From IMG/VR virus record IMGVR_UViG_3300011440_000020, positions 1 through 32,014 of that record: a DNA stretch of 32,014 nt; one strand, written 5' to 3'. Below are positions 2,061 to 31,270 of this stretch, piece after piece. Below the pieces are notes generated by a model. It worked only from the letters and a program-made list of their open reading frames with translations, made no database searches and was not told the DNA's origin. Origin of the DNA: a virus. The stretch's first letter is position 1. Each line of letters begins with the position of its first letter. A program made the position numbers and the translations under genes.

Positions 2061-3290
2061 GTGACCGTGGGTTTGTTTCGCCGCAACAAGACGGCGCCGG
2101 TCGAGGCGCGTGATATCACGTCGGTGCCGTGGGATGTGGGCGGCCCGCTCGTTACTGCGGTGACGCAGGATCGGGCGCTGACGTTGGCGCCGGTGTATGC
2201 GGCGGTCCGGTTTCTTGCCGATCAGATTTCGTCTTTGCCGTTGCAGCCGTTTCGGCGTGCCGGGTCGGTCCGCGACAAGCTCGACACGTTGCCGCAGCTG
2301 TTCCGCATGTTGGACGACGACGGTGTGTTGAACGATTGGGTGTTCACGGCGGTGTCGTCGTTGGCGTTGCGTGGCAACGCGGTCGGTTTGGTCACGGCAC
2401 GCGATGGGATGGGGTTCCCGACGGTCGTCACCTGGCTGTCGATGGATGACATCTGGGTTGACGACGCGAACTATCCGCGGCCTGTCTGGTATTGGAAGGG
2501 TCATTGGGTCGATTCGGACGACATCGTTCATATCCCGTGGTTCAAGATCGCGGGTCGGACGTTGGGGTTGTCGCCGATCGAGGCGTACGCGTTGACGATC
2601 ACGGCGGGGTTGGAGTCGCAGAAGTTCGGGACGGACTGGTTCCAGCATGGCGGGTTCCCGCCGGGGACGTTCCGTAACTCGGCGAAGACGGTCGATGCCA
2701 CTGAGGCGGATGTGATCAAGAACCGTTTGGTGGCGGCGATCCGTTCCCGTAAGCCGCTGGTGTACGGCAACGATTGGGAATGGAAGGCGGAGACGATCCC
2801 GCCGGAACAGGCCCAGTTCATCGAGACGTTCAAGCTGACCGCGAATCAGATCGCCGCGATCTACGGGATAGCCCCCGAGGAGATCGGTGGCGAGGCGGCG
2901 AACTCGATGACGTACATGAACGAAGAGCACCGCGAGTTGCGCCGGATGGCTGATTGTCGGCCGTGGCTCGACAAGCTCGAACGAAAGTTCGGGTCGTGGC
3001 TGCCGGAGCGGCAGTTCGTGCGGTTCAACGTTGATGCCCCGATCCGTGTCGATTTGAAGACCCGCCGTGAGGTGTTCAAGCTCGAGCGGGAGATGGGGTT
3101 CCGCAACATCGATGAGCAGCGCGCTCTTGAAGATTTGCCGCCTTTGCCGAATGGTGAGGGCGAGGACTACACGCCATTGTCGAAACCCGCAGCCTCTGCT
3201 GCACCTGCGAATGAACCTGCGTCGGCGCCGGCTGCCATGAACGGGCACAGCCCGACACCGGTCCCCGCCATGAAAGGGAGCACCACATGA
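2061..3290 (+). CDS. Portal protein, HK97 family
   Basis: This 409-residue protein forms the dodecameric portal at the capsid vertex through which DNA is packaged. It starts at GTG three bases after the terminase stop. Features seen include the early TLAPVYAAVRFLADQISSLP segment, a central ETFKLTANQIAAIYGIAPE stretch typical of HK97 portals, and an Ala/Pro-rich low-complexity tail over the last 40 residues. The tail end overlaps the protease start (ATGA at 3287-3290). Size and order (terminase, portal, protease) match HK97-like phages. Confidence 0.93.
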   Translation: MTVGLFRRNKTAPVEARDITSVPWDVGGPLVTAVTQDRALTLAPVYAAVRFLADQISSLPLQPFRRAGSVRDKLDTLPQLFRMLDDDGVLNDWVFTAVSSLALRGNAVGLVTARDGMGFPTVVTWLSMDDIWVDDANYPRPVWYWKGHWVDSDDIVHIPWFKIAGRTLGLSPIEAYALTITAGLESQKFGTDWFQHGGFPPGTFRNSAKTVDATEADVIKNRLVAAIRSRKPLVYGNDWEWKAETIPPEQAQFIETFKLTANQIAAIYGIAPEEIGGEAANSMTYMNEEHRELRRMADCRPWLDKLERKFGSWLPERQFVRFNVDAPIRVDLKTRREVFKLEREMGFRNIDEQRALEDLPPLPNGEGEDYTPLSKPAASAAPANEPASAPAAMNGHSPTPVPAMKGSTT

Positions 3291-4102: not shown

Positions 4103-5371
4103 GTGGAACTTCTCACACGGCTGCGCGACCAACGCCTCAACGTCTGGGAACAGGCCAAGGCGGTCGCATCAGCAGCCTCCGACCAGAACCGTGCCTTCAC
4201 CGGCGAAGAGCAAGCCCAATGGGAAACGCTCAACGCCGAACTCGAAGCGCTCGACCGGCGCATGAAGTCGATCGCCGACGGCGAGCAGCGTGCCAAGGAA
4301 ACCGAGGCCCGTTTCGCTGAGATCGAAGGCCGCCCCTCCGACAGCGGCAAGACGCCTGCGAAGCAGAACAGCATGAGCGAGCTCCGTTCGTTCCTGCTCG
4401 GCGAGCCCGGCGCCCCCCGCGCGTTCGAGGTTGAGGTCGCCGACCCGTCGACGGTCCCCACCTCGCAACGTGACCTGTCGAAACTGACGAACGCCGCCGG
4501 TGCGTTCACGGTGCCGACGTCGTTCTACAACCGGCTCGTCGAACACATGATCGAAGTGTCCGGTGTGTTGCAGGCCGGTCCAACCGTGCTGAACACCTCG
4601 GGTGGTGAGGTCATCCAGATCCCCAAGACGCTGACGCACACGCCGTCTCCGGCGATCGTGCTCGAGGCCGGCGCGATCTTGGAGTCGGACGGCACGTTCG
4701 GTCAGACCTCGCTCGGTGCGTTCAAGTACGGCCGCATGGTCCAAGTCTCGAGGGAACTCCTGACGGACACCGGCATCGACCTCACCGGCTACCTCGCCCG
4801 CAGTGTGGGTCGTGCGCTCGGCAACGCGTTCGGGTCCGATCTGATCATCGGGGGCGGCACCACCGCACCCCGAGGCATCCAGCTCGACGCCGCCGCAGGT
4901 GTCACCGGCCCCGCCGGCACCACCGTCACGTTCGGCAACCAGGCCACCGTCGGCCAAGGTTTCGACCTGATCATCTCGCTCTACCACAGCGTGATCTCGC
5001 CGTACCGCTCAAGCCCGTCGTGTGCGTGGGTGATGAACGACACCACCGCGTCGCTGGTGCGTCGGATCAAGAACACCGCCGGCGACTACGCGTGGCAGCC
5101 GTCGTTGACGGTCGGCAACCCCGACCTCATCTTGGGCAAGCCGGTGTACATCGATCCGTTCGTGCTGTCCCCGGCGGCGTCGGTCGAGTCGATCTTCTTC
5201 GGTGACTGGTCGCAGTTCTTCGTCCGCTACGCGGGCGGGATCCGCTTCGAGCGCTCCGACGACTTCGCGTTCGCGAACGACCTCGTCAGCTTCCGGGCGC
5301 TCCTCCGGGCTGACGCCGCGCTCGTCGACCTCACCGGCGCCATCAAGTCGTTTACCCACAGCGCCATCTGA
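4103..5371 (+). CDS. Major capsid protein, HK97 fold with N-terminal delta domain
   Basis: This 422-residue protein builds the icosahedral shell. Residues 1 to about 105 are charged and helical (coiled-coil delta domain, acting as internal scaffold). The HK97 fold follows, with recognisable segments AGAFTVPTSFYNRLVEHM, KYGRMVQVSRELLTD, GRALGNAFGSDLIIGGGT and a C-terminal FFGDWSQFFVRYAGGIRFE. It starts at GTG preceded by TAGGAG. The long hairpin-rich leader before it is the largest gap inside the head operon. Cleavage by the upstream protease is expected near residue 100, but the exact site is not visible. Confidence 0.93.
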   Translation: MELLTRLRDQRLNVWEQAKAVASAASDQNRAFTGEEQAQWETLNAELEALDRRMKSIADGEQRAKETEARFAEIEGRPSDSGKTPAKQNSMSELRSFLLGEPGAPRAFEVEVADPSTVPTSQRDLSKLTNAAGAFTVPTSFYNRLVEHMIEVSGVLQAGPTVLNTSGGEVIQIPKTLTHTPSPAIVLEAGAILESDGTFGQTSLGAFKYGRMVQVSRELLTDTGIDLTGYLARSVGRALGNAFGSDLIIGGGTTAPRGIQLDAAAGVTGPAGTTVTFGNQATVGQGFDLIISLYHSVISPYRSSPSCAWVMNDTTASLVRRIKNTAGDYAWQPSLTVGNPDLILGKPVYIDPFVLSPAASVESIFFGDWSQFFVRYAGGIRFERSDDFAFANDLVSFRALLRADAALVDLTGAIKSFTHSAI

Positions 5372-7217: not shown

Positions 7218-7663
7218 TGGCGCTCAACCTGACCGTGATCCGTGAAGCGTTGGCGGCGCAGATCACCGCCGGTACCGGCCGCGAGGTCCGCGGATACCCC
7301 TACCCGACAGGGTCGATCAACGAACTGCCATGTGTCGTGGTCCGCTGCGACGACGACTACGTCAACTATCACGCTACCCAAGGCGAAGCCGCCGACGTCG
7401 GATTGGTGATCGACGTGATGGCCGCCTGTCGGGCGTCGATCGAAGACGGTCTGCGGGTGTTGGATGAGTTGTTGTCGTCGGCTGCTGGTCAGCCGACGAG
7501 TGTGATCGACGCGATCGAGGCTGACGATTCGTTGGGTGGTGCCGTGGAACGTGTCGTCGTCGGGACAGCCGGTCAGCAGACAGGGTTCGGGACGGTGGAA
7601 GATGGCCGCCCGATCGGTGTCATCGCGTCGGTGCCGGTCGAGGTGTGGGTGAACCGTTCGTGA
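7217..7663 (+). CDS. Head-tail connector / tail terminator-like protein
   Basis: This 148-residue protein occupies the slot of tail terminator or head closure proteins. The start MALNLTVIREALAAQI and the following GYPYPTGSINELPCVVV segment resemble small connector proteins of actinophages that pair with the major tail protein. No catalytic motif is seen. It starts at ATG in a TGATG overlap with the methyltransferase and ends inside the glycosyltransferase start (GTGA). The exact connector role is inferred from order only. Confidence 0.55.
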   Translation: MALNLTVIREALAAQITAGTGREVRGYPYPTGSINELPCVVVRCDDDYVNYHATQGEAADVGLVIDVMAACRASIEDGLRVLDELLSSAAGQPTSVIDAIEADDSLGGAVERVVVGTAGQQTGFGTVEDGRPIGVIASVPVEVWVNRS

Positions 7664-8709
7664 AGGTTCTGATCGTCCACCCCGGCGCCCACTACTCGGT
7701 CGCCGACGTCCACAACGGTCTGGTCCGAGGGTTGAAAGCGAACGGCTGCGACGTCGGCGTGTTCAACCTCGACGACCGCATCGAGTTCTACACCCGAGCC
7801 CACGTCCAACAAGACGACGGCACCTACACCAAAGCGTTCTCCGACAACGACGCGATGCTGATGGCCGCCAAAGGCATCGAAACGGTGTGCTACGAGTGGT
7901 GGCCCGACGTAGTGATCGTCGTGTCCGGGTTCTTCATCCCGCCGCAGGTGTGGGGTGTGCTCACCCGCCGCCCCCATCACGTCGTCTACTGGTGCACCGA
8001 ATCACCCTACGAGGATGACAGGCAGGGGCAGCCCGGCCGGTACGTCGACACCGTCGTACTCAACGACCCCACCAACCTCGACCAGTTCGTCGCCGACATC
8101 AACCCGAACACCCACTACATCGGCCACAGCTACGACCCCGACGTCCACCACCGCGGCGGGCGGCGGCCGTCGCTCGCCTGCGACTTCGGATTTGTCGGCA
8201 CAGCGTTCCCGTCACGCATCGATTTCTTCGAGGCTGTCAACTGGGATGGGATCAACGTCAAGCTGGCCGGCAACTGGCAAGGACTCGAGCCGTCTTCGCC
8301 GCTGACCCCGTTCCTTCACGACGAGCCGGATCGCTGCATGGACAACATCGTCACCGCCGACCTGTACCGATCGTGTCGGGTATCGGCGAACCTGTACCGC
8401 AAAGAACACTCCGAGCATGGGCACGCCGAGGGTTGGGCGATCGGGCCGCGTGAGATCGAGCTCGCCGCGTGTGGGACGTTCTTTCTGCGTGAGCCCCGCC
8501 CCGAAGGCGACGCCTTGTTTCCGATGTTGCCGACGTTCACCGAATCAGATGAGTTCTCCGACAAGCTTCGCTGGTGGCTGGCCCGCCCGGAGCTCGCCGC
8601 AGAGGCCGCCACGCAAGCGTGTGCGGTGATTGCCGACCGGACGTTCACGAACACCGCAGCAGAACTGTTACGGATCGTGGAGCGGGTCGGCACCAGACGC
8701 GCCGCATAG
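7660..8709 (+). CDS. Glycosyltransferase, GT-B type, CgeB-like C-terminus
   Basis: This 349-residue protein begins MKVLIVHPGAHYSV, the first Rossmann strand of a GT-B glycosyltransferase. The C-terminal third contains EGWAIGPREIELAACGTFFLREPRPEGDALF split over the donor-sugar site, like CgeB/GT4-like enzymes. GTG 7660 was chosen because it overlaps the previous stop; an in-frame GTG at 7645 is possible. It sits directly upstream of the major tail protein gene. Mycobacteriophages are known to glycosylate capsid and tail proteins with enzymes encoded in structural modules, so a virion target is plausible. Host cell-wall glycan is the alternative. Confidence 0.8.
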   Translation: MKVLIVHPGAHYSVADVHNGLVRGLKANGCDVGVFNLDDRIEFYTRAHVQQDDGTYTKAFSDNDAMLMAAKGIETVCYEWWPDVVIVVSGFFIPPQVWGVLTRRPHHVVYWCTESPYEDDRQGQPGRYVDTVVLNDPTNLDQFVADINPNTHYIGHSYDPDVHHRGGRRPSLACDFGFVGTAFPSRIDFFEAVNWDGINVKLAGNWQGLEPSSPLTPFLHDEPDRCMDNIVTADLYRSCRVSANLYRKEHSEHGHAEGWAIGPREIELAACGTFFLREPRPEGDALFPMLPTFTESDEFSDKLRWWLARPELAAEAATQACAVIADRTFTNTAAELLRIVERVGTRRAA

Positions 8710-8752
8710 GCGCACCCCACCCGGCCCCGGCCGCAAACAAAGGGAGTCCCAT

Positions 8753-9151
8753 ATGGCTCGCATCGCCGGCCGCCAAGGCCGTCTGTACGCAAACCTCACA
8801 TCGGGCGGCACCGCCGAACCGATCGCGTTCCTCACGAACTGGTCACTCAGCGCGACGACGAACAAAATCAAGGTGACCGCGTTCGGTGACACGAACGAGG
8901 TGTACGTCGGCGGGATGCCCGACGCCCAAGGATCCCTCAGCGGCTGGTACGACAACGCCACCGTGCAGTTGTACACCGCCGCCGTCGACGGGGTGGCCCG
9001 CAAGATGTACCTGTACCCAGACAACACGCTCACCACCCAGTATTTTTGGGGGACAGCGATCTTCGATTTCTCGGTCGACATCGGTGTGGATGGTGCGGCA
9101 GCGATCTCGGGGTCGTGGGCTGCGGCGACACCGATCCTCAAGGCCGGCTGA
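8753..9151 (+). CDS. Major tail (tube) protein
   Basis: This 132-residue beta-rich protein starts at ATG with AGGGAG upstream after a 43-base gap, the longest in this stretch. The pattern of a short N-terminal strand, TNWSLSATTNKIKVTAFGDTN and a C-terminal ISGSWAA segment is typical of actinophage tail tube subunits. It is short compared with many tube proteins, and no Ig-like extension is attached. The separate leader suggests independent translation at a high level. Confidence 0.78.
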   Translation: MARIAGRQGRLYANLTSGGTAEPIAFLTNWSLSATTNKIKVTAFGDTNEVYVGGMPDAQGSLSGWYDNATVQLYTAAVDGVARKMYLYPDNTLTTQYFWGTAIFDFSVDIGVDGAAAISGSWAAATPILKAG

Positions 9152-9154
9152 CCG

Positions 9155-9628
9155 GTGCCGGACGACACGTTCGCGTCGTTCGGTCATCGGGTCAACGTGT
9201 TCGTCAACGGCATCTCCGGCCCCGAACTCAAAGCCGTCATGACGAAGCTCGGCGTCGAAGCGAAGAAAGATGCGGAGGCCGCCGCATCCGGTGACCTCGG
9301 CGGCGACCCCAAGTTCTCCGGGTGGGCGCCACGGCTTGACACACGGTTCGATCATGCGGGTGAGGGACGGATCTCGTTCCATCCGTCGAAGTCCGGGTCG
9401 GGGCCGTGGACTGTTGCCGAGTTCGGCCGGCATTCGGCGGCTGGGCCGCCGATGACCGGACCGAAGCTGACAAAGTCCGGCAAAGTGTCGAAGGCCAAGA
9501 CCAAGAGATGGAACGGCCGCACCCGAGGTAAGGGGACGGCGACGACAGCGTTGGCGAAGATCGAGAAGGCGACGCCGGACCGGTTCGAGGCGGAGTTGCG
9601 TAAGGCGCTGCGGAAGGCGTTCGACTGA
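9155..9628 (+). CDS. Minor tail / tail completion-like protein (HK97 gp10-like position)
   Basis: This 157-residue basic protein starts at GTG three bases after the tube gene. The segment RLDTRFDHAGEGRISFHP followed by GPWTVAEFGR is common to actinophage proteins placed near the tube gene and usually annotated as tail proteins. The C-terminal half is rich in Lys and Arg (SKAKTKRWNGRTRGKG). It stands where tail assembly chaperones are normally found but shows no chaperone features and no slippery frameshift site. The function is inferred from position. Confidence 0.55.
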   Translation: MPDDTFASFGHRVNVFVNGISGPELKAVMTKLGVEAKKDAEAAASGDLGGDPKFSGWAPRLDTRFDHAGEGRISFHPSKSGSGPWTVAEFGRHSAAGPPMTGPKLTKSGKVSKAKTKRWNGRTRGKGTATTALAKIEKATPDRFEAELRKALRKAFD

Positions 9629-9646
9629 ACGGAGAGGCGGCGCCCG

Positions 9647-11479
9647 ATGGCCAACAAAATCTCCGTCCTGATCGACGTCGCAACCGACAAAGCCGTCTCC
9701 GGGCTGAAAGGGTTCAAGGCGTCGATCAACGACGCCGACGGCGCAGTCGGCAAGATGAAGGCCGGGACGGGTGCGGCGTTCGATTCGATCAAGGCGCACG
9801 CCGGCCAGTTGGCTTTGGCGGGCGGGGCGGCGCTCGTCGGGTTCGGTGTCAAAGCCGTAGCCGCGTTCCAAGACACCGCCCTCGCGGCCGGGAAGATGGC
9901 CGACTCGTCCGGGCTCGCGGTCGATGAGGCGTCACGCTGGATCGCTGTCGGTGACGACATCGGTGTGTCCGCCGAGACGATGTCGAAAGGGTTCAACAAG
10001 CTCAACATCGAAACCGCTAAAGCGAACCCGCTGCTCGCCGAGTTGGGGATCACACAGCAACGCAACGCCGCCGGCCAGGTCGACGCCAACAAGACGATGC
10101 TCCACGCGATCGACGTCATCAAAGGCATCCAAGACCCCACCAAGAAAGCGCAGGCCGCCCAGGCAGCGTTCGGTAAGGGCTGGATGGAGATGGGCGAGCT
10201 CATCAACATGGGCTCGACCGAGATCGCTGCCGGCATGGCGAAGGTGTCCGACGCCCAGGTCATCGACGACAAAGAGTTGGCGAAGGCCCGAAAGTTCCGC
10301 GACGCCCTCGATTCGTTGCAGGACAAGTTCAAAGACATCGCCACGGAGGTCGGCGAGAAACTCGTGCCGGTCCTGTCCGATGTCGGGCCGATGTTGGAAA
10401 CGATCGGTGACGGCATCGTCATCGTCGCGTCAGCGACAGGTAAGTTCACCGGCGCCCTCTCCGATGTCAACGAGGCCGCCTACGACCTGGGCGCCGGGCT
10501 GGGCCGCGTCATTCACGGCACTGACGAAACAGTCGAGAATCTGCACGACGCCGAGCAGGCAGCCCGCGACATGTTCGACGGCCTCGCGTCAGGCATCACG
10601 ACCCTCGACGGGTTCATCGCCGTGTTGGATGAGAACAACGTCCAGTACACCGAACGCGCCCTGCTTATCAACGAGTTCATCGAACAACACCCGAAAGAAT
10701 CGGCGGCGTACAAAGAGAAGGCCGCCGTTGTCGGCATGTACGTCGAGATGCAGGAAGGGTTGAAGGGTGCGCTCGAGGACACGGGTGAGGCGACCGAGGA
10801 TCTGGCCCGCGAGAACGACCTGTTGGCGGATGCGATCCAGCGGACCCAGGATCGTTACGCCGACCTGAAAGGCGAACTCTCAGACGAGGAGGCGTTCCAC
10901 ACCGCCGAAGGGATGTGGACCGACCTCAAGCAGTCAGCGATCGACGCCTATACGGCGGCCGGTGAGAACGCCGACGACGCGGCGGCGAAGGCGTACGATC
11001 ATGCGGGTGCGGTGATCGCGGCGAAGCAGCAGGTGGTCGAGCTCGGCGAGAAGTACGCCGATCTGCCCGAGGAGGAGATCACCCGCATAGTCGCGATGAT
11101 CGACGAGGGCCAGTTGGCGGAAGCGGAACGCCGGTTCAACATCCTCGCCCGGAATCGCGAGATGCGGATCTCTGTCATTGCCTCCGGCGCGTCGGGCAAC
11201 TTCAACATTCCGGTGCATGGCTCGATCTCGATGGGTGCGACTGGCGGGATCGTCACGCAGCCGACCCTTGCGGTGATCGGTGAGGCTGGCCCGGAAGCGG
11301 TGGTGCCGCTGAATCGGACGCCAGGTTCGTCTCCGCTTCCGGCCATGAACGGCGGGACCGCTCCGATCAACGTGACGGTGAACGCGGGGTTGGGTGCGAA
11401 CGGTCGTGAGATCGCCGATGTGATCGTCGGGGAGTTGAAGAAGTACACGCGTCGTAACGGGCCGGGGTGGATGGGCTGA
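9647..11479 (+). CDS. Tail tape measure protein
   Basis: This 610-residue protein sets tail length and passes into the host during DNA entry. It is largely helical and has one hydrophobic segment near residues 54-73. The conserved C-terminal block TGGIVTQPTLAVIGEAGPEAVVPL is a hallmark of tape measures in actinophages. At roughly 1.5 angstrom per residue the tail would be about 90 nm, short to medium for a siphovirus. It starts at ATG with GGAGAGG upstream. The stop overlaps the next ATG (TGATG at 11477-11481). Confidence 0.93.
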   Translation: MANKISVLIDVATDKAVSGLKGFKASINDADGAVGKMKAGTGAAFDSIKAHAGQLALAGGAALVGFGVKAVAAFQDTALAAGKMADSSGLAVDEASRWIAVGDDIGVSAETMSKGFNKLNIETAKANPLLAELGITQQRNAAGQVDANKTMLHAIDVIKGIQDPTKKAQAAQAAFGKGWMEMGELINMGSTEIAAGMAKVSDAQVIDDKELAKARKFRDALDSLQDKFKDIATEVGEKLVPVLSDVGPMLETIGDGIVIVASATGKFTGALSDVNEAAYDLGAGLGRVIHGTDETVENLHDAEQAARDMFDGLASGITTLDGFIAVLDENNVQYTERALLINEFIEQHPKESAAYKEKAAVVGMYVEMQEGLKGALEDTGEATEDLARENDLLADAIQRTQDRYADLKGELSDEEAFHTAEGMWTDLKQSAIDAYTAAGENADDAAAKAYDHAGAVIAAKQQVVELGEKYADLPEEEITRIVAMIDEGQLAEAERRFNILARNREMRISVIASGASGNFNIPVHGSISMGATGGIVTQPTLAVIGEAGPEAVVPLNRTPGSSPLPAMNGGTAPINVTVNAGLGANGREIADVIVGELKKYTRRNGPGWMG

Positions 11480-23322: not shown

Positions 23323-23510
23323 ACGCCGTCCTGTTGTTGGTGGTGTTCGCCGGGCCGATCCTGGTCGGCTGTGTGTTGGGTGTGTGGGGTTGGTGGAGGC
23401 CGAGGGTTCATCTGGCCCGGGCATTCGCCGCCGGCAGGGCGGAGCACATCGCCCGCCTCCCCGCACCCGTCGAGCCGATGCCGACATTCCCGCTCGAGGA
23501 CGTCGCATGA
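23319..23510 (+). CDS. Small membrane protein in the early operon (63 aa)
   Basis: This 63-residue protein starts at GTG (GTGA overlap) with an N-terminal membrane segment (NAVLLLVVFAGPILVGCVLG) followed by WGWWRPR and a cytoplasmic tail ending PTFPLEDVA. No known domain is seen. Early expression and membrane location would fit superinfection exclusion or interference with host envelope functions, but this is inference. It ends in an ATGA overlap. Confidence 0.6.
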   Translation: MNAVLLLVVFAGPILVGCVLGVWGWWRPRVHLARAFAAGRAEHIARLPAPVEPMPTFPLEDVA

Positions 23511-23821
23511 GCGAGCACAAGGCAGCTAGTCCCGTTCCGGCTGCTAGCCCGACCGTCGGTGAGGTGCTGTGGAGGGCGCTGCAAGGCACTGCCATGATCG
23601 GACCTCAACCACGCAACATTGCCGTCGCTCTCGGCATCGACCCAGACCTACCCATTGAGACGCTGAGGCGTCGACTCGGTCGCCCCCTGATGTGTGAGCA
23701 CTGCGACAACATCACGGGTGTTACTTGGTGTCCCAACGTCGAAGACGACGATGTTGTGCCCCTGTGCTCTCAGTGTCGAGGCATGTTCCTGAGGTCAGAC
23801 AACACGGATGGTCCGCTGTGA
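23507..23821 (+). CDS. Zinc-binding protein of unknown function (104 aa)
   Basis: This 104-residue protein has an Ala/Pro-rich start, a helical middle (NIAVALGIDPDLPIETLRRR) and a C-terminal cluster of Cys (C63, C66, C75, C87, C90: CEHCDN, TWCPN, LCSQC) that fits a zinc ribbon. Its last codons lie in a 19-bp stretch repeated at 26020-26038, also at the end of a gene. It overlaps the LPXTG gene by GTGA. The function is unknown. Confidence 0.55.
   Translation: MSEHKAASPVPAASPTVGEVLWRALQGTAMIGPQPRNIAVALGIDPDLPIETLRRRLGRPLMCEHCDNITGVTWCPNVEDDDVVPLCSQCRGMFLRSDNTDGPL
23797..23815 (+). repeat. 19-bp gene-end repeat, copy 1
   Basis: AGACAACACGGATGGTCCG here is identical to 26020-26038. In both places it encodes the last residues DNTDGP of a gene and is followed within a few bases by a GTGA stop/start overlap. 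It may be a trace of modular recombination. Confidence 0.8.
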
Positions 23822-24288
23822 GGCGCGTCCTGCTTGCAGCCGTGTTCGCGGTGTCGGGTGGGTGGGTGGGTGCGAACGACCAGTGCCGGGACCGCACCGA
23901 ACGAAACGGGGACAAACCATGCCAGACAACGACCACGTCGTCTTCGACTACCACGAGCACACCCACTACCTCGACGACGGCACCCGCCTCGACCGTCCCC
24001 TCCTCAAGCACGACCACCAGCACGACCACTACCCCCGGCACACCCACGACGTCAACGGATCCATCTGCTACTACTTCCACAGCCCCGGCAACAACGTCGC
24101 CCTCTACCACCTTCCCGGCGGTGCCGGCCTCATCGGCGAATCCGGCTACGACATCACCCACCGCACCCCCCGAAGCGCTTGACCGCCTACCCGACACCGG
24201 GTACCCGATCCCGTGGTGGGTCGGTGTGACGGTGATCCTGTTGGCGTTGGGTGGCGGCGCAATGTACGGCACACGGAGACAACCATGA
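23818..24288 (+). CDS. Secreted LPXTG cell-wall-anchored protein with Thr/Ser-rich stalk
   Basis: This 156-residue protein has all parts of a sortase substrate. A signal peptide (MRRVLLAAVFAVSGGWVGA) is followed by a short Cys-containing head (C23, C35), a stalk of about 80 residues made mainly of Thr, Ser, Pro and Ala, LPDTG at 124-128, a membrane segment (WWVGVTVILLALGGGAMY) and a basic tail GTRRQP. The host sortase would attach it to peptidoglycan. A His-rich ORF overlaps the stalk in another frame. The GTG start and ATGA end fit the operon. Masking of phage receptors or altered adhesion of the host are possible roles (inference). Confidence 0.75.
   Translation: MRRVLLAAVFAVSGGWVGANDQCRDRTERNGDKPCQTTTTSSSTTTSTPTTSTTAPASTVPSSSTTTSTTTTPGTPTTSTDPSATTSTAPATTSPSTTFPAVPASSANPATTSPTAPPEALDRLPDTGYPIPWWVGVTVILLALGGGAMYGTRRQP
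23919..24182 (+). CDS. His/Asp-rich ORF overlapping the LPXTG stalk
   Basis: This 87-residue frame starts at ATG 23919 with GGGGAC a few bases upstream and ends before the LPXTG motif region. It is rich in His, Asp and Tyr (DYHEHTHYLDDGTRLDR, LLKHDHQHDHYPRHTH), and nearly every codon ends in C, as in real genes here. The C-terminal half (SICYYFHSPGNNVALYHLPG) is not low-complexity. Because NAC codons read as Thr in the next frame, one frame may be the by-product of the other. Both may be used. The many His could bind metal. Confidence 0.45.
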   Translation: MPDNDHVVFDYHEHTHYLDDGTRLDRPLLKHDHQHDHYPRHTHDVNGSICYYFHSPGNNVALYHLPGGAGLIGESGYDITHRTPRSA

Positions 24289-24503: not shown

Positions 24504-24667
24504 GTGTTGTGCCGTTGACGGATCCGGTGGATGACATCCATCGGTGGTCGTGTGCGGAGGTGGCGATCATCCGCGGCCACTATGCGGACGCCCAACGCCG
24601 CGTCGACGCCGAATACCGCAAGTTCGCCGCAGACATCGAACACATCGCCGCACAGGTCCAACCATGA
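24500..24667 (+). CDS. Hypothetical early protein (55 aa)
   Basis: This 55-residue helical protein starts at GTG overlapping the previous stop (GTGA) and ends in an ATGA overlap with the C5 methyltransferase gene. The helix CAEVAIIRGHYADAQRRVDAEYRKF is amphipathic and could form a coiled coil. Function is not recognised; its fixed link to the methyltransferase suggests co-expression. Confidence 0.5.
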   Translation: MSVVPLTDPVDDIHRWSCAEVAIIRGHYADAQRRVDAEYRKFAADIEHIAAQVQP

Positions 24668-25647
24668 CCTACACCGTGGGTTCGCTGTTCTCAGGCATCG
24701 GAGGGATCGACCTCGGCCTCGAACGCGCCGGGATGACTGTTCGGTGGCAGTCCGAGAACGACCCGTACTGCTGCCGCATCCTCGCGAAGCACTGGCCGCA
24801 CGTCCCGAATTTGGGTGATGTGACCGCGATCGATTGGAGCACTGTTGAACCCGTCGACCTCATCTGCGGCGGCTACCCCTGCCAGCCGTTCTCCCTCGCA
24901 GGGGCTCGAGCCGGAGAAACCGACGCCCGACATCTTTGGCCGTTCTTCGCCGCCGCCATTCGCCACCTACGACCCCGATACGCGTTGCTGGAGAACGTCC
25001 CAGGGCACCTTTCCCTGGGGTTCGGACGAGTACTCGGAGACTTGGCCGAGTGCGGGTACGACACGGAGTGGGATTGCATTCCGGCTGCCGCCGTTGGTGC
25101 CCCGCACCTCCGCTACCGCGTCTTCGTTGTTGCATACCCCCACCGCGAAAGCGAACCAGGCTTCACCGTCGATGCGGTCACGGGACCCAGGGTCGTGGTT
25201 CCCAACACCAACGGCCACACCGTACGGCAGCAACCAGTCGCCATCTTCGGGCGCCGCTGTGCGACCGTCGCTGCAGGCAATGGCAACAACTGGGATGTGG
25301 CCGACACCTCGAGCGTCCCCGAACGAGAATCGGCAGACCAAGCCGACCCCGTCACAGTTGGCCGGGAAGCACGGGCGATCGCTTGCGGCGGAGGTGAACT
25401 GGCGGACGCCGAAGGCGAGCGATGCCGCTCACTCGGGCCGTACAGCGCCGGCGAAGCCCGGGCAGACAACATCGCTGGACATGCAGGTGAACTCGCAGGA
25501 GGACACGCCTGGGCAGTTGAACCCGATGTGGGTCGAGTGGCTGATGGGGTTCCCCATCGGGTGGACCGACTGCGAGCCCTCGGCAACGCCGTAGTCCCCC
25601 AAGTAGCCGAACTCATCGGCCGGCGCATCCTCGAGGCAGCCGCGTGA
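24664..25647 (+). CDS. C5-cytosine DNA methyltransferase (Dcm type)
   Basis: This 327-residue enzyme transfers a methyl group from SAM to C5 of cytosine in DNA. Motif I is LFSGIGGIDLGLERAG at the start, motif IV has the catalytic Cys in GGYPCQPFSLAG, motif VI is LLENVPG, motif VIII is PHLRYRVFVVAY, and motifs IX/X appear as RVDRLRALGNAVVPQVAELIGRR at the end. The target-recognition part is about 110 residues. It has no restriction partner, so it probably protects phage DNA from host restriction. Its C-terminal half overlaps a long second frame described separately. Confidence 0.92.
   Translation: MTYTVGSLFSGIGGIDLGLERAGMTVRWQSENDPYCCRILAKHWPHVPNLGDVTAIDWSTVEPVDLICGGYPCQPFSLAGARAGETDARHLWPFFAAAIRHLRPRYALLENVPGHLSLGFGRVLGDLAECGYDTEWDCIPAAAVGAPHLRYRVFVVAYPHRESEPGFTVDAVTGPRVVVPNTNGHTVRQQPVAIFGRRCATVAAGNGNNWDVADTSSVPERESADQADPVTVGREARAIACGGGELADAEGERCRSLGPYSAGEARADNIAGHAGELAGGHAWAVEPDVGRVADGVPHRVDRLRALGNAVVPQVAELIGRRILEAAA
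24845..25594 (+). CDS. Overlapping frame inside the C5 methyltransferase gene (249 aa), possible second protein
   Basis: In the +1 frame a stop-free run covers most of the methyltransferase gene. Its translation contains YDPDTRCWRTSQGTFPW, YSETWPSAGTTRSGIAFRLP, WPTPRASPNENRQTKP and ends NPMWVEWLMGFPIGWTDCEP. These WPTP-rich segments and the EWLMGFPxGWTD end look to me like proteins I recall from phage genomes beside or inside Dcm genes; I cannot check this here. The first start is only a TTG (24845), so expression might need frameshifting or a non-standard start. It may also be a conserved shadow. Confidence 0.35.
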   Translation: MNPSTSSAAATPASRSPSQGLEPEKPTPDIFGRSSPPPFATYDPDTRCWRTSQGTFPWGSDEYSETWPSAGTTRSGIAFRLPPLVPRTSATASSLLHTPTAKANQASPSMRSRDPGSWFPTPTATPYGSNQSPSSGAAVRPSLQAMATTGMWPTPRASPNENRQTKPTPSQLAGKHGRSLAAEVNWRTPKASDAAHSGRTAPAKPGQTTSLDMQVNSQEDTPGQLNPMWVEWLMGFPIGWTDCEPSATP

Positions 25648-25859: not shown

Positions 25860-26044
25860 GCGACCCGAGTGCATTCGATGTCGAGGACTGGCGCACCTGG
25901 CCGATCCCGATGCACTACGTCGCCGATGGTCGCACCTGCACGGCGTGGGTCGAGGGGTTCGACCAGGCGCTCCGAATGACCGACCACTTCCACAAGCACG
26001 GCGAATGGCCCACGGAACGAGACAACACGGATGGTCCGGCGTGA
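25856..26044 (+). CDS. Hypothetical early protein (62 aa)
   Basis: This 62-residue soluble protein starts at GTG in a GTGA overlap. Aromatic and His residues are frequent (DWRTWPIPMHYVADG, TDHFHKHGEWP). Its end DNTDGPA is encoded by the second copy of the 19-bp gene-end repeat. Function not recognised. Confidence 0.5.
   Translation: MSDPSAFDVEDWRTWPIPMHYVADGRTCTAWVEGFDQALRMTDHFHKHGEWPTERDNTDGPA
26020..26038 (+). repeat. 19-bp gene-end repeat, copy 2
   Basis: These bases are identical to 23797-23815. Each copy encodes the C-terminus of an otherwise unrelated small gene and precedes a GTGA junction. The 2.2 kb between the copies holds the LPXTG gene and the C5 methyltransferase. Confidence 0.8.
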
Positions 26045-26160
26045 GCGTTTTAGGCCGTGTGGCGTCCCTCCCAGCGTCACGCGTGGTGCATGTACCCGCG
26101 GCTCCCGGTGTCAGGCCGGTTGAGCTGCGGGACAGCACCCACACCGAGGAGGCGTCGTGA
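26041..26160 (+). CDS. Small ORF (39 aa)
   Basis: This 39-residue frame starts at GTG overlapping the previous stop, and its own stop overlaps the next ATG (TGATG at 26158-26162). The sequence (MSVLGRVASLPASRVVHVP then APGVRPVELRDSTHTEEAS) has no clear motif or membrane segment. Coupling on both sides is the evidence for translation. Confidence 0.4.
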   Translation: MSVLGRVASLPASRVVHVPAAPGVRPVELRDSTHTEEAS

Positions 26161-26327: not shown

Positions 26328-26464
26328 GGACTATCGCGGCTGTCGTGTTCATCGCCCTCTCAGCCGGGCTGTTGGTGTGGATGAAGCTCGGCGCCCGCCG
26401 CGAATTCCCCGCCGACGGCGTACACGCCCCCAGATCGATCAACAACAACCGGAGCCGGCGATGA
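26324..26464 (+). CDS. Small membrane protein (46 aa)
   Basis: This 46-residue protein starts at GTG and has one membrane segment (IAAVVFIALSAGLLVWMKLG), then a short basic tail with RREFPADGVHAPRS. It is coupled to neighbours by GTGA and ATGA overlaps. With the preceding gene it makes two adjacent one-segment membrane proteins in the early region, directly before the exonuclease. Function unknown. Confidence 0.55.
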   Translation: MRTIAAVVFIALSAGLLVWMKLGARREFPADGVHAPRSINNNRSRR

Positions 26465-27708
26465 CTGTTCTGCGTGGTCCTGCCGACGCCGACCACTACC
26501 GGGTGAAGGTCGGACGTTACGGCGACCGCTGGTACACCGACCCGTTGCCGTCGTGCCCGATCGCGGAGGCGTCGGATTGGCAGGGTCCGTCGTGGTCGAT
26601 CGTGAAAGGCGCCGCCGGCAAAGACTGGTCGTACGTCACCAACAAACGCAACGGCCACACCCCCACCGTCGAACTCCACCGCATCGCCGACCTCCCACCC
26701 GATGAACGCACCCAGGCGTTCAACGCGATCAACCGCAACGGGCTCAACCAGGCCGGCGGACGCGGCACCATCGTCCACCTGTGGGCGGAGGATCTGTTGG
26801 CCGGTCGGACACCACGCGACTTCACCGGGCCAGCCCTGTTCGCGCTCAAGTTGACACAGGCCGCCTACAACGAAGCCCTCGAGTACCTCCCGGCGCTGTC
26901 AGCGTTCTTCGATCACTACCAGCCTGAAACGGTGATGGCCGAATACGTCTGCATCCACCGTGACCTCAACGGCTACGGCTACGGCTGCACCCCCGACGTC
27001 ATCGCCCATGTTCAAGGACAACTCGTCGGCATCGACTGGAAGTCGCGTGGCGCCGATTCCGACCACGGCGCCTACCCCGAGGAAGCCGCACAGATCGCCG
27101 CCGGTGCTCGAGCCCAATACAGCATCATCACCCACCCCGAAACCGGCCACCCCGTACGCGACCGCATCCCACCCATCGACTGCGGACTCGTCGTCTCCAT
27201 CAAACCCGACGGAGCACGCATCTACCCGACCGACATCGACCTCGGCTTCGCGCATGTCGAAGCGATGCACGCCTTCTGGGTTGCCCGCCTCACCGAAAAG
27301 GCTGCGATCGGGAAACCGTGGCCCCCAACACCAACAAACCAGGAGGCACTGTGGTCGTCCACTTCCACATCGACGGCGACAACCACACCTGGACCGCCAC
27401 CCACCCCAACTACCCCCAACCCCACCACCACCAACACGGCGCCGACGGCTGGGAATGCATCAACGACCCCTGGCCCACCGAACAACGACTACACCGTCAC
27501 CTCCCGTGTACTCGCCCACGCCATGACCGAATGGACACCTGAACTCCGCCAATACCTCAAAGACTGGTGGCCCGACGGCTACCCCACCCCCGGCACCGTC
27601 CGTAGAGGTGAAGCCGTATGGACCGAAGAACAACTCGACCAAATCGAACAACTCTGCGATTTGGGTGACGCCCCATTCTGGCAACCAGCCACACCCCAAC
27701 CCCGATAA
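26461..27708 (+). CDS. PD-(D/E)XK exonuclease, RecB/Cas4-like phage recombination nuclease
   Basis: This 415-residue protein is typical of actinophage exonucleases. RGTIVHLWAEDLLAG (101-115), a Glu at 161 (AEYVCIH), TPDV with Asp179, IDWKSRG with Asp192 and Lys194, and QIAAGARAQY (211-220) make up the nuclease core. Residues 285-345 form a Thr/Pro-rich linker, and a C-terminal piece (TPGTVRRGEAVWTEEQLDQI) resembles the usual family end. It likely resects double-stranded ends for recombination or replication with the next gene's product. A small His-rich ORF lies inside the linker region. Confidence 0.83.
   Translation: MTVLRGPADADHYRVKVGRYGDRWYTDPLPSCPIAEASDWQGPSWSIVKGAAGKDWSYVTNKRNGHTPTVELHRIADLPPDERTQAFNAINRNGLNQAGGRGTIVHLWAEDLLAGRTPRDFTGPALFALKLTQAAYNEALEYLPALSAFFDHYQPETVMAEYVCIHRDLNGYGYGCTPDVIAHVQGQLVGIDWKSRGADSDHGAYPEEAAQIAAGARAQYSIITHPETGHPVRDRIPPIDCGLVVSIKPDGARIYPTDIDLGFAHVEAMHAFWVARLTEKAAIGKPWPPTPTNQEALWSSTSTSTATTTPGPPPTPTTPNPTTTNTAPTAGNASTTPGPPNNDYTVTSRVLAHAMTEWTPELRQYLKDWWPDGYPTPGTVRRGEAVWTEEQLDQIEQLCDLGDAPFWQPATPQPR
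27351..27542 (+). CDS. His-rich ORF nested in the exonuclease gene (63 aa)
   Basis: An AGGAGG at 27341-27346 stands four bases before GTG 27351 in a frame different from the exonuclease. The 63-residue product begins MVVHFHIDGDNHTWTATHPN and includes HHHQHGADGWECINDPW. C-ending codons dominate in the first two thirds. A perfect ribosome binding site in the middle of a gene, aimed at another frame, argues that this nested protein is made. It overlaps the low-complexity linker, where the host frame is under weak constraint. Function unknown. Confidence 0.5.
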   Translation: MVVHFHIDGDNHTWTATHPNYPQPHHHQHGADGWECINDPWPTEQRLHRHLPCTRPRHDRMDT

Positions 27709-29837: not shown

Positions 29838-31270
29838 TGGACGTCGAACGCGAACCCGCCCTCGGCTTCGGCCACCAAATCGGACCCCTAGAACCCCGCT
29901 ACGGCCCCGACTGGGCGCCACTCCAATGCGACGTCTGCAAAGCCACCTGGATCGGACCCATCGGCGAATGGTGCTCCTTCTGCACCACCTGGAACGAACG
30001 CGCCGAACGCAACCAAATCCCCAAACCCAAGGCCAAGGCCGACTTCACCTACGAACAACTGTTAGCCGTGTTCGAAGCAGCCGGCCCCAACGGCCACAAA
30101 CCCGGAGACATGGCAGGCGACAACGAGCTCCGCGCCCTCCTCATCAACTGGCCCCTCTTCTGGGCCAAAGACCATTCGGAAGCCGAATGGCTCGCCGAAC
30201 CCCTCATCCCATCAGGCCGCAGCGTCGCCCTGTTCGCCCCCGGCGGCACAGGCAAATCACTCCTCGCGCTCTGGTTGGCAGCCGGCATCGCCACCGGCAC
30301 ACCCATCTTCGGCACCACCCAACCCCCCAGACGGGTCCTGTACCTCGACTACGAAATGACCGAAGACGACCTCGCCGAACGCCTAGAAACGATGGGATAC
30401 GCCGATGTGGACCTACAAAACCTGCACTACGCCCTCCTGCCTTCGCTCCCTGGTCTTGACCAACGGGAGGGTGGTGAAGCTATATGTCGACTGGCTGAAC
30501 TGTGCGACGCCGAGCTGGTCATCATCGACACCTTCGGCCGCGCCGTACACGGCGACGAAAACGACGCCGACACCGTCCGCGCCTGGTACCGCTTCACCGG
30601 CATCCACCTCAAAAACGCCGGCCGCGCCTTCGTCCGCGTCGACCACGCCGGCAAAGACCTAGCGAAAGGGCAGCGCGGCACCAGCGCCAAAAACGACGAC
30701 GTCGACATCGTCTGGCAAATGACCGTCAAAGACGACTCGAGCTTCACGTTGACCGCGAGGAAGCGGCGCATGAGCTGGGTCCCTGAAACCGTCAACCTCC
30801 ACCTCGACGACAACGACCTCCTCCACTTCGCCCGACTCGACATCCCACCCCCACCACCCGGCACCAACGACACCGCAACCCTCCTCGACCAGTACGGCGC
30901 CGACCCGGACATCACCGTCAGCCAAGCCGTCCAACTCCTACGCGACCACGGCACCGCCACCCGGAAACAGGTCGTCGCCGCAGCCGTCAAACACCGCCGC
31001 CAAGCTGTGGAAAACCTGCTCGGAACCTGTGGACAACCAGCGGGAACCGCTGCCGGAACCGACCTCCCCCCAAAGTGGTCAGGAACCGACATCGGAACCG
31101 CCTACGACCCCAAACCAAACACCCTGCTAGACGACCTGGGAACCGAAACCGGAACCGACGGGAACCGTTCATCCGGGCAAGGGGGTTCGGGTGGGTGGTT
31201 ACCCGTAGGGGAACCACCCGAACCCCGCCCCAACCCCATCGACCCACTCGCAGACCTCGAGGAGTTCTAA
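29837..31270 (+). CDS. RepA/RecA-like replicative helicase or primase-helicase loader
   Basis: This 477-residue ATPase has an N-terminal zinc ribbon (C31, C34, C46, C49), Walker A APGGTGKS (134-141), LYLDYEM (168-174), Walker B LVIIDTF (227-233), VDHAGKD and RGTSAKNDDVD (280-290), which together are typical of AAA_25/RepA-type hexameric helicases of phages and plasmids. After residue 335 the chain becomes Pro-rich and then Gly/Thr-rich; the DNA of that tail holds DnaA-box-like sites and GGAACC repeats. ATG 29837 was preferred to GTG 29834. It drives phage replication. Confidence 0.85.
   Translation: MDVEREPALGFGHQIGPLEPRYGPDWAPLQCDVCKATWIGPIGEWCSFCTTWNERAERNQIPKPKAKADFTYEQLLAVFEAAGPNGHKPGDMAGDNELRALLINWPLFWAKDHSEAEWLAEPLIPSGRSVALFAPGGTGKSLLALWLAAGIATGTPIFGTTQPPRRVLYLDYEMTEDDLAERLETMGYADVDLQNLHYALLPSLPGLDQREGGEAICRLAELCDAELVIIDTFGRAVHGDENDADTVRAWYRFTGIHLKNAGRAFVRVDHAGKDLAKGQRGTSAKNDDVDIVWQMTVKDDSSFTLTARKRRMSWVPETVNLHLDDNDLLHFARLDIPPPPPGTNDTATLLDQYGADPDITVSQAVQLLRDHGTATRKQVVAAAVKHRRQAVENLLGTCGQPAGTAAGTDLPPKWSGTDIGTAYDPKPNTLLDDLGTETGTDGNRSSGQGGSGGWLPVGEPPEPRPNPIDPLADLEEF
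31006..31215 (+). other. Candidate origin of replication
   Basis: TGTGGAAAA (31006-31014) and TGTGGACAA (31028-31036) lie 22 bp apart on the same strand; the second is exactly the reverse complement of the actinobacterial DnaA box TTGTCCACA. GGAACC then occurs at 31022, 31043, 31055, 31082, 31094, 31139, 31151, 31161 and 31210. Three pairs have 12-bp spacing. The copies at 31161 and 31210 are in other reading frames than the rest, so the repetition is not explained by protein sequence alone. Lambda-like phages place iterons inside the replication gene in a similar way. Confidence 0.65.
31182..31226. repeat. 13-bp perfect inverted repeat at the end of the helicase gene
   Basis: Bases 31182-31194 are the exact reverse complement of 31214-31226 with 19 bases between. 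A shorter alternative stem (31193-31200 with 31212-31219) is also possible. It borders the candidate origin and could act as a cruciform, a helicase loading site or a transcription stop. Confidence 0.75.

Follow-up and report, generated by a model that had tools for sequence, protein, structure and literature searches.

Overlapping genes are a known kind of gene arrangement in phages. For virus genes that arose de novo by overprinting, excerpts of two reports indicate that codon usage is in use as a means of dating (PMC3744397, PMC8227390). The locus studied here resembles the cases in these excerpts in that two proteins, of which one is probably disordered, may be encoded by one stretch of DNA in different sense frames. 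It differs in that the host gene is a low-complexity, sortase-type stalk, on which the usual arguments from openness and codon usage fail. The pair formed by this LPXTG stalk and a nested His/Asp-rich open reading frame (ORF) was not described in the titles and abstract openings of the literature searched.

A second system for comparison is the internal ORF of phage cytosine methyltransferases, annotated as 'g55 internal gene' in Paenibacillus phage Shelly. A counterpart lies in the window, by which we mean the whole stretch of DNA analyzed, a 32,014-base IMG/VR virus record (W in pairwise comparisons; see Table 1 for its features). The internal frame matches 116 phage records, and its conservation beats synonymous permutation (z of 8.0 for W-Shelly, 5.8 for W-CheeseTouch, and 4.7 for CheeseTouch-Shelly); for the +2 frame of the same pairs, z was 0.9, 2.0, and 2.2. 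Judged by these alignments, it appears to be a dual-coding gene widespread among phages. No paper on it was found among the titles and abstract openings returned by literature searches. The ORF in the LPXTG stalk is likewise a long sense overlap inside a phage gene. In contrast, the methyltransferase ORF shows the opposite frame shift (+1 of its host), a much wider distribution, and stronger conservation, and it is much better supported than the nested ORFs in the LPXTG stalk and in a nuclease linker.

Family searches showed that the window carries portal, HK97-type capsid, and terminase genes, the HK97-type label coming from sequence and position. An integrase gene and an HTH repressor gene point leftward, and a Cro-like gene points rightward (repressor and Cro-like labels also from sequence and position). 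Integrase, repressor, and Cro-like genes together with virion genes indicate that the virus is most likely a temperate phage. Its early region contains two DNA methyltransferases, an exonuclease-like protein, and an AAA protein. The LPXTG gene sits in the rightward early region, close to the Cro-like gene; the small gene upstream of it is without a Pfam or PHROG match. A 26-base repeat with 92% identity, around 'gacaacacggatggtccg', is located at 23797-23822 and 26020-26045, at the ends of two early genes, and a similar stretch is present near 4811-4843 of a related contig, L003.

Table 1. Positions of the genes, nested ORFs, and signals of the window
Feature	Position	Strand	Evidence or remark
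Upstream small gene, 104 aa, cysteine-rich	23507..23821	+	Ends inside LPXTG start
LPXTG surface-protein gene, 156 aa, GTG 23818 to TGA 24288	23818..24288	+	4-nt overlap with each neighbor gene
Signal-peptide-like N-terminus VRRVLLAAVFAVSGGWVGA	23818..23874	+	Read by eye; cleavage site inferred
Shine-Dalgarno-like GGGGA ahead of nested start	23908..23912	+	Anti-Shine-Dalgarno (anti-SD) duplex, -8.3 kcal/mol
Nested His/Asp-rich ORF, 87 aa, ATG 23919, TGA 24180-24182	23919..24182	+	Conservation tests, start signal
Thr/Ser/Pro/Ala stalk, LPXTG frame	23923..24180	+	Translation, codon simulations, shadow-window comparison
LPDTG motif (at 24187), hydrophobic segment, RR tail	24187..24285	+	Read by eye
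Downstream small gene, 72 aa	24285..24503	+	ATGA overlap with LPXTG stop
m5C methyltransferase gene	24664-25647		Host frame matches phrog_363 (7.4e-83)
+1-frame internal ORF in methyltransferase, 249 aa	24845-25594		Matches phrog_1008 (9.8e-30)
Exonuclease-like gene (phrog_298), Thr-rich linker holds second nested ORF	26461..27708	+	PHROG match
Second nested ORF (candidate), GTG, 63 aa, His-rich, AGGAGG at 27341-27346	27351..27542	+	Same relative frame as LPXTG-stalk ORF

The LPXTG gene is a real gene, because it overlaps both neighbors by 4 nt and because the Thr/Ser/Pro/Ala content of its stalk (0.885) lies above that of all 82 open +1 shadow windows of 87 codons in this genome (maximum, 0.74). 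Its C-terminus, LPDTG-YPIPWWVGVTVILLALGGGAMYGTRRQP, consists of the motif followed by a hydrophobic segment and a basic tail, as in a sortase anchor. The sequence points to an LPXTG protein of the sortase type that is secreted and has a disordered stalk; this protein may alter the cell surface during infection or lysogeny. In its signal-like N-terminus, stalk, motif, hydrophobic segment, and basic tail, the predicted product is like described sortase-anchored proteins (TIGR01167, PF00746). It differs from them in that it is encoded by a temperate phage, its stalk overlaps a second ORF, and it stays below all curated anchor cut-offs: no Pfam family was matched, and NCBIfam NF058582 was matched with 21.9 bits (E of 1.4e-4), under the 27-bit cut-off. 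The homologue on another related contig, L004, scored 17.7 against TIGR01167 (LPXTG_anchor), above the cut-off of 15.9, and passed the PF00746 cut-off in one search and fell under it in another.

The preliminary description of this DNA had reported that 264 nt within the stalk are open in two frames, one of them an 87-codon ORF with an ATG start. The reading frames bear this out. The nested ORF ends just before LPDTG; its frame (the His frame) lies one base upstream of that of the stalk (the Thr frame) and continues without a stop in the 5' direction as far as an ATG at 23808. Searches of Pfam, PHROGs, and NCBIfam gave no match for the His protein, and its predicted structure is of low confidence (pLDDT of 48; the two structure models run had pLDDT of 57 and 48). 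It is taken to stay in the cytoplasm, because it has no signal sequence, and its His clusters allow the speculative guess that it binds metal during early infection.

A scan of viral contigs with a nearby nuclease yielded L003, L004, and L005. In the first two, both from one IMG sample, an LPXTG stalk gene is again paired with a His frame in the same relative position, and both frames are open in all three loci (3/3), as expected from the stalk. The His-frame proteins of L003 and L004 show 45% and 39% identity to that of the window, and 22 columns, including DYHxH and HDxNGSxxYY, are invariant across the three. Further relatives were collected with the second methyltransferase (10 loci including L003), the portal (9 loci), and a nuclease profile (5 loci). 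The scan for the LPXTG and His ORF pair covered the methyltransferase and portal sets, and the pair was present only in L003, among the methyltransferase and portal loci, and in L004, among the nuclease relatives. In a separate scan for open alternative frames, L030 gave a result, whereas L031 and L032 gave none and contribute nothing. Single-protein and profile scans of viral and genome contigs, a DNA pattern, and tblastn on phages revealed no fourth member; the four stretches matching the DNA pattern were the two known contigs and two chance matches. On L004, the frame of an N6/N4 methyltransferase at 8518-9959 seems broken, with matches scattered over separate pieces and no continuous long frame, which may reflect a pseudogene or a fault in the assembly.

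The start signal of the nested ORF was compared with 57 out-of-frame starts followed by at least 55 open codons, for which the median anti-SD duplex energy was -3.1 kcal/mol and the 5% quantile -7.3. Only 2 of these 57 equal or beat the value of the window; 20 real starts had a median of -6.0. The corresponding energies were -11.5 in L004 and -5.0 in L003. The signal is strong in the window and L004; in L003, the sole start codon is a GTG, and its site is weak.

Dual coding had been proposed from the His/Asp richness and C-ending codons of an open frame with a normal start. The stalk is encoded mostly by NCN codons (T, S, P, A), which read one base upstream as NNC, that is, as codons ending in C, in which stops are nearly impossible; every Thr 'AC' yields NAC (Tyr, His, Asn, or Asp). 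When the stalk protein was held fixed in codon simulations, the H/D/Y/N content of the His frame was invariant, and this frame was open in 0.69, 0.50, and 0.68 of the codon resamplings for the window, L003, and L004, respectively, and in 0.44, 0.19, and 0.64 of the synonymous permutations. Of 435 windows of 87 codons in the ordinary genes of the contig, 82 were open in +1 and 100 in +2. The openness and composition of the His frame are therefore not beyond chance: His/Asp richness, C-ending codons, and the open frame count for nothing as grounds for coding, since all three follow from a T/S/P/A stalk. What exceeds chance, and keeps the proposal alive, is the Shine-Dalgarno energy at the nested start and the conservation in two relatives. 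Long Thr/Ser-rich open frames were also seen at 30774-31130, where the AAA-protein gene is overlapped in another frame, and at 7916-8305, where the same is true of a gene for 354 aa (7645-8709). They look like mere shadows and illustrate how C-ending genes cast 'stalks'.

The automatic composition fits the possibility, which we take seriously without holding it probable, that the LPXTG stalk is the sole coding frame and the His/Asp-rich ORF a by-product of NCN codons, never made or functionless. The fixed H/D/Y/N content, the openness of the window frame in roughly half of the resamplings or more (0.44-0.69), and the abundance of long open alternative frames all agree with it, and so do two results given below, namely that the window pairs are without excess synonymous constraint and that the His-frame changes are not conservative. 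Against it stand the strong start signals in 2 of 3 loci and a His-frame similarity that beats a Thr-only null in 2 of 3 pairs.

Synonymous and nonsynonymous changes, suggested earlier as the check on both frames, revealed constraint in the Thr frame and gave mixed results for the His frame. For W-L003, the site-class rates were 0.40 at Thr-synonymous/His-nonsynonymous sites (SN), 0.25 (NN), and 0.17 (NS); for W-L004 they were 0.53, 0.22, and 0.34. NN/NS was 1.49 and 0.63, respectively, and differences were commonest at His position 1. Since SN was highest in both pairs, Thr-frame constraint is visible in them and His-frame constraint is not. For L003-L004, the three classes diverged about equally (0.19, 0.15, and 0.19). 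In this pair, 31 of 39 Thr-synonymous codons were kept versus 23.9 expected (P = 0.0075). In the window pairs, retention was not above the controls (W-L003, 12/23 versus 11.2, P = 0.44; W-L004, 11/23 versus 11.9, P = 0.72), which were other genes of the same pairs (868, 818, and 807 codons). Thr-synonymous changes showed no preference for conservative replacements in the His protein (p = 0.26, 0.27, and 0.99 on 8, 10, and 12 changes).

The His-frame local-alignment score was also compared with realigned synonymous permutations of the Thr frame. It exceeded them with z of 6.8-7.0 (L003-L004), 5.8-6.4 (W-L003), and 4.1-4.3 (W-L004), versus a mean z of 1.7-1.8 and maxima of 4.4, 4.2, and 4.2 in 27, 26, and 25 control windows of ordinary genes. 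Under an evolutionary null with selection on the Thr frame only, the observed similarity was reached in 0/3000 simulations for L003-L004, with p = 0.0023 for W-L003 and p = 0.20 for W-L004; the 53, 39, and 39 codons compared were placed in register by the His frame, which biases this test toward that frame, and retention rates came from two or three other genes per pair. When retention was raised by 15%, the values were 0.010, 0.015, and 0.44. Taken together, the selection tests favor the second frame in L003-L004, give a mixed picture for W-L003, and are neutral for W-L004.

The signal in L003-L004 could alternatively reflect recent exchange: if phages of one habitat swapped this DNA, the stalks would be alike and uninformative on the second frame. 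We regard this as unlikely, even with both contigs coming from one IMG sample and their site classes diverging about equally. Between these two contigs, the stalk indeed differs less than the anchor part of the gene (third-position difference of 0.21 in aligned stalk segments versus 0.58, P = 0.0009; 30/81 versus 19/33, P = 0.06, when the protein alignment was unbiased). The window pairs showed no clear contrast of this kind (third-position difference in W-L003, 0.61 in the stalk versus 0.64 in the anchor; identical codons, 23/46 versus 8/22, P = 0.31). The excess of His-frame similarity persists in W-L003 and argues against exchange, although it does not in W-L004.

Improbable, in our estimate, is the reverse order of events raised in the preliminary description, in which a small His/Asp gene came first and the LPXTG stalk arose on top of it. 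Codon usage alone would favor this order: within the overlap, synonymous usage in the Thr frame ranks at the 1st percentile of real genes versus the 88th for the His frame, and A/T-ending NCN codons are in excess in the stalk (24/74 versus 0.16 genome-wide, P = 0.0007). Both signals are confounded, however, and no stand-alone His homologue was found in viral contigs, genome contigs, phage tblastn, or the DNA pattern. Codon usage was set aside as a dating tool, because NCN forces C-ending codons on the other frame and ordinary disordered tails are also unusual; that of the portal (window starting at 3141) has 43% A/T-ending codons. Moreover, a His protein with the codon usage of the genome would cast an NCN fraction of 0.59±0.05 on the other frame, versus 0.85 in the window. 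The LPXTG-frame values of 0.85, 0.78, and 0.79 (window, L003, and L004) all exceed the null of 0.58-0.60 (0/5000 samples each), showing constraint on the Thr frame. Thus, the stalk is not merely the shadow of a His gene.

We consider it reasonably probable that the nested gene is real, that it arose by overprinting on a permissive stalk, and that it is initiated independently on a shared mRNA. Dual coding at this site is supported, not proven, by the sequence comparisons and start signals. In the -1 frame, an NCN stalk would read as NNC codons (His, Asp, Tyr, and Asn) with hardly any stops, and a ribosome-binding site and a start codon at the edge of the stalk would suffice to expose a new protein. 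The stalk would tolerate its sequence, because only its composition matters. The mRNA of the LPXTG protein would then also be initiated at the internal Shine-Dalgarno sequence and ATG, yielding an 87-residue His/Asp-rich protein without a signal peptide, whose putative core, DYHxH ... HDxNGSxxYY, is kept in two distant phages.

The linker of the exonuclease-like nuclease contains a further candidate, whose Shine-Dalgarno energy (-10.3) is the strongest of the 57 out-of-frame starts. In L004, a different, coiled-coil-like ORF of 59 aa (10897-11076), with AAGGAG and an ATG, lies at the matching place in the Ser/Thr/Asn-rich linker of the nuclease; the L003 linker has no nested ORF. The heptad pattern of the L004 ORF was rejected as evidence (p = 0.29 versus permutation, though p = 0.008 for helix-forming residues), and codon usage does not separate its frames. 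The phage collection held no relative of the nuclease, and no homologues fit for a selection test were found for the linker ORFs, with only weak, below-threshold-like matches for the L004 ORF. It is conceivable, though doubtful, that the disordered stalks and linkers of this phage group are a breeding ground for nested genes. New small genes would recur there in the same relative frame because disordered segments rich in NCN codons have almost no stops in it.

For His/Asp-rich ORFs over Thr-rich stalks, as for Thr-rich 'stalks' over C-ending genes, composition alone is no proof of coding. If the nested gene is real, it would represent gene birth on the low-complexity surface stalk of a bacterial virus, and the rule of the genetic code by which NCN in one frame gives nearly stop-free NNC in the next would show where to seek such births in GC-rich genomes.
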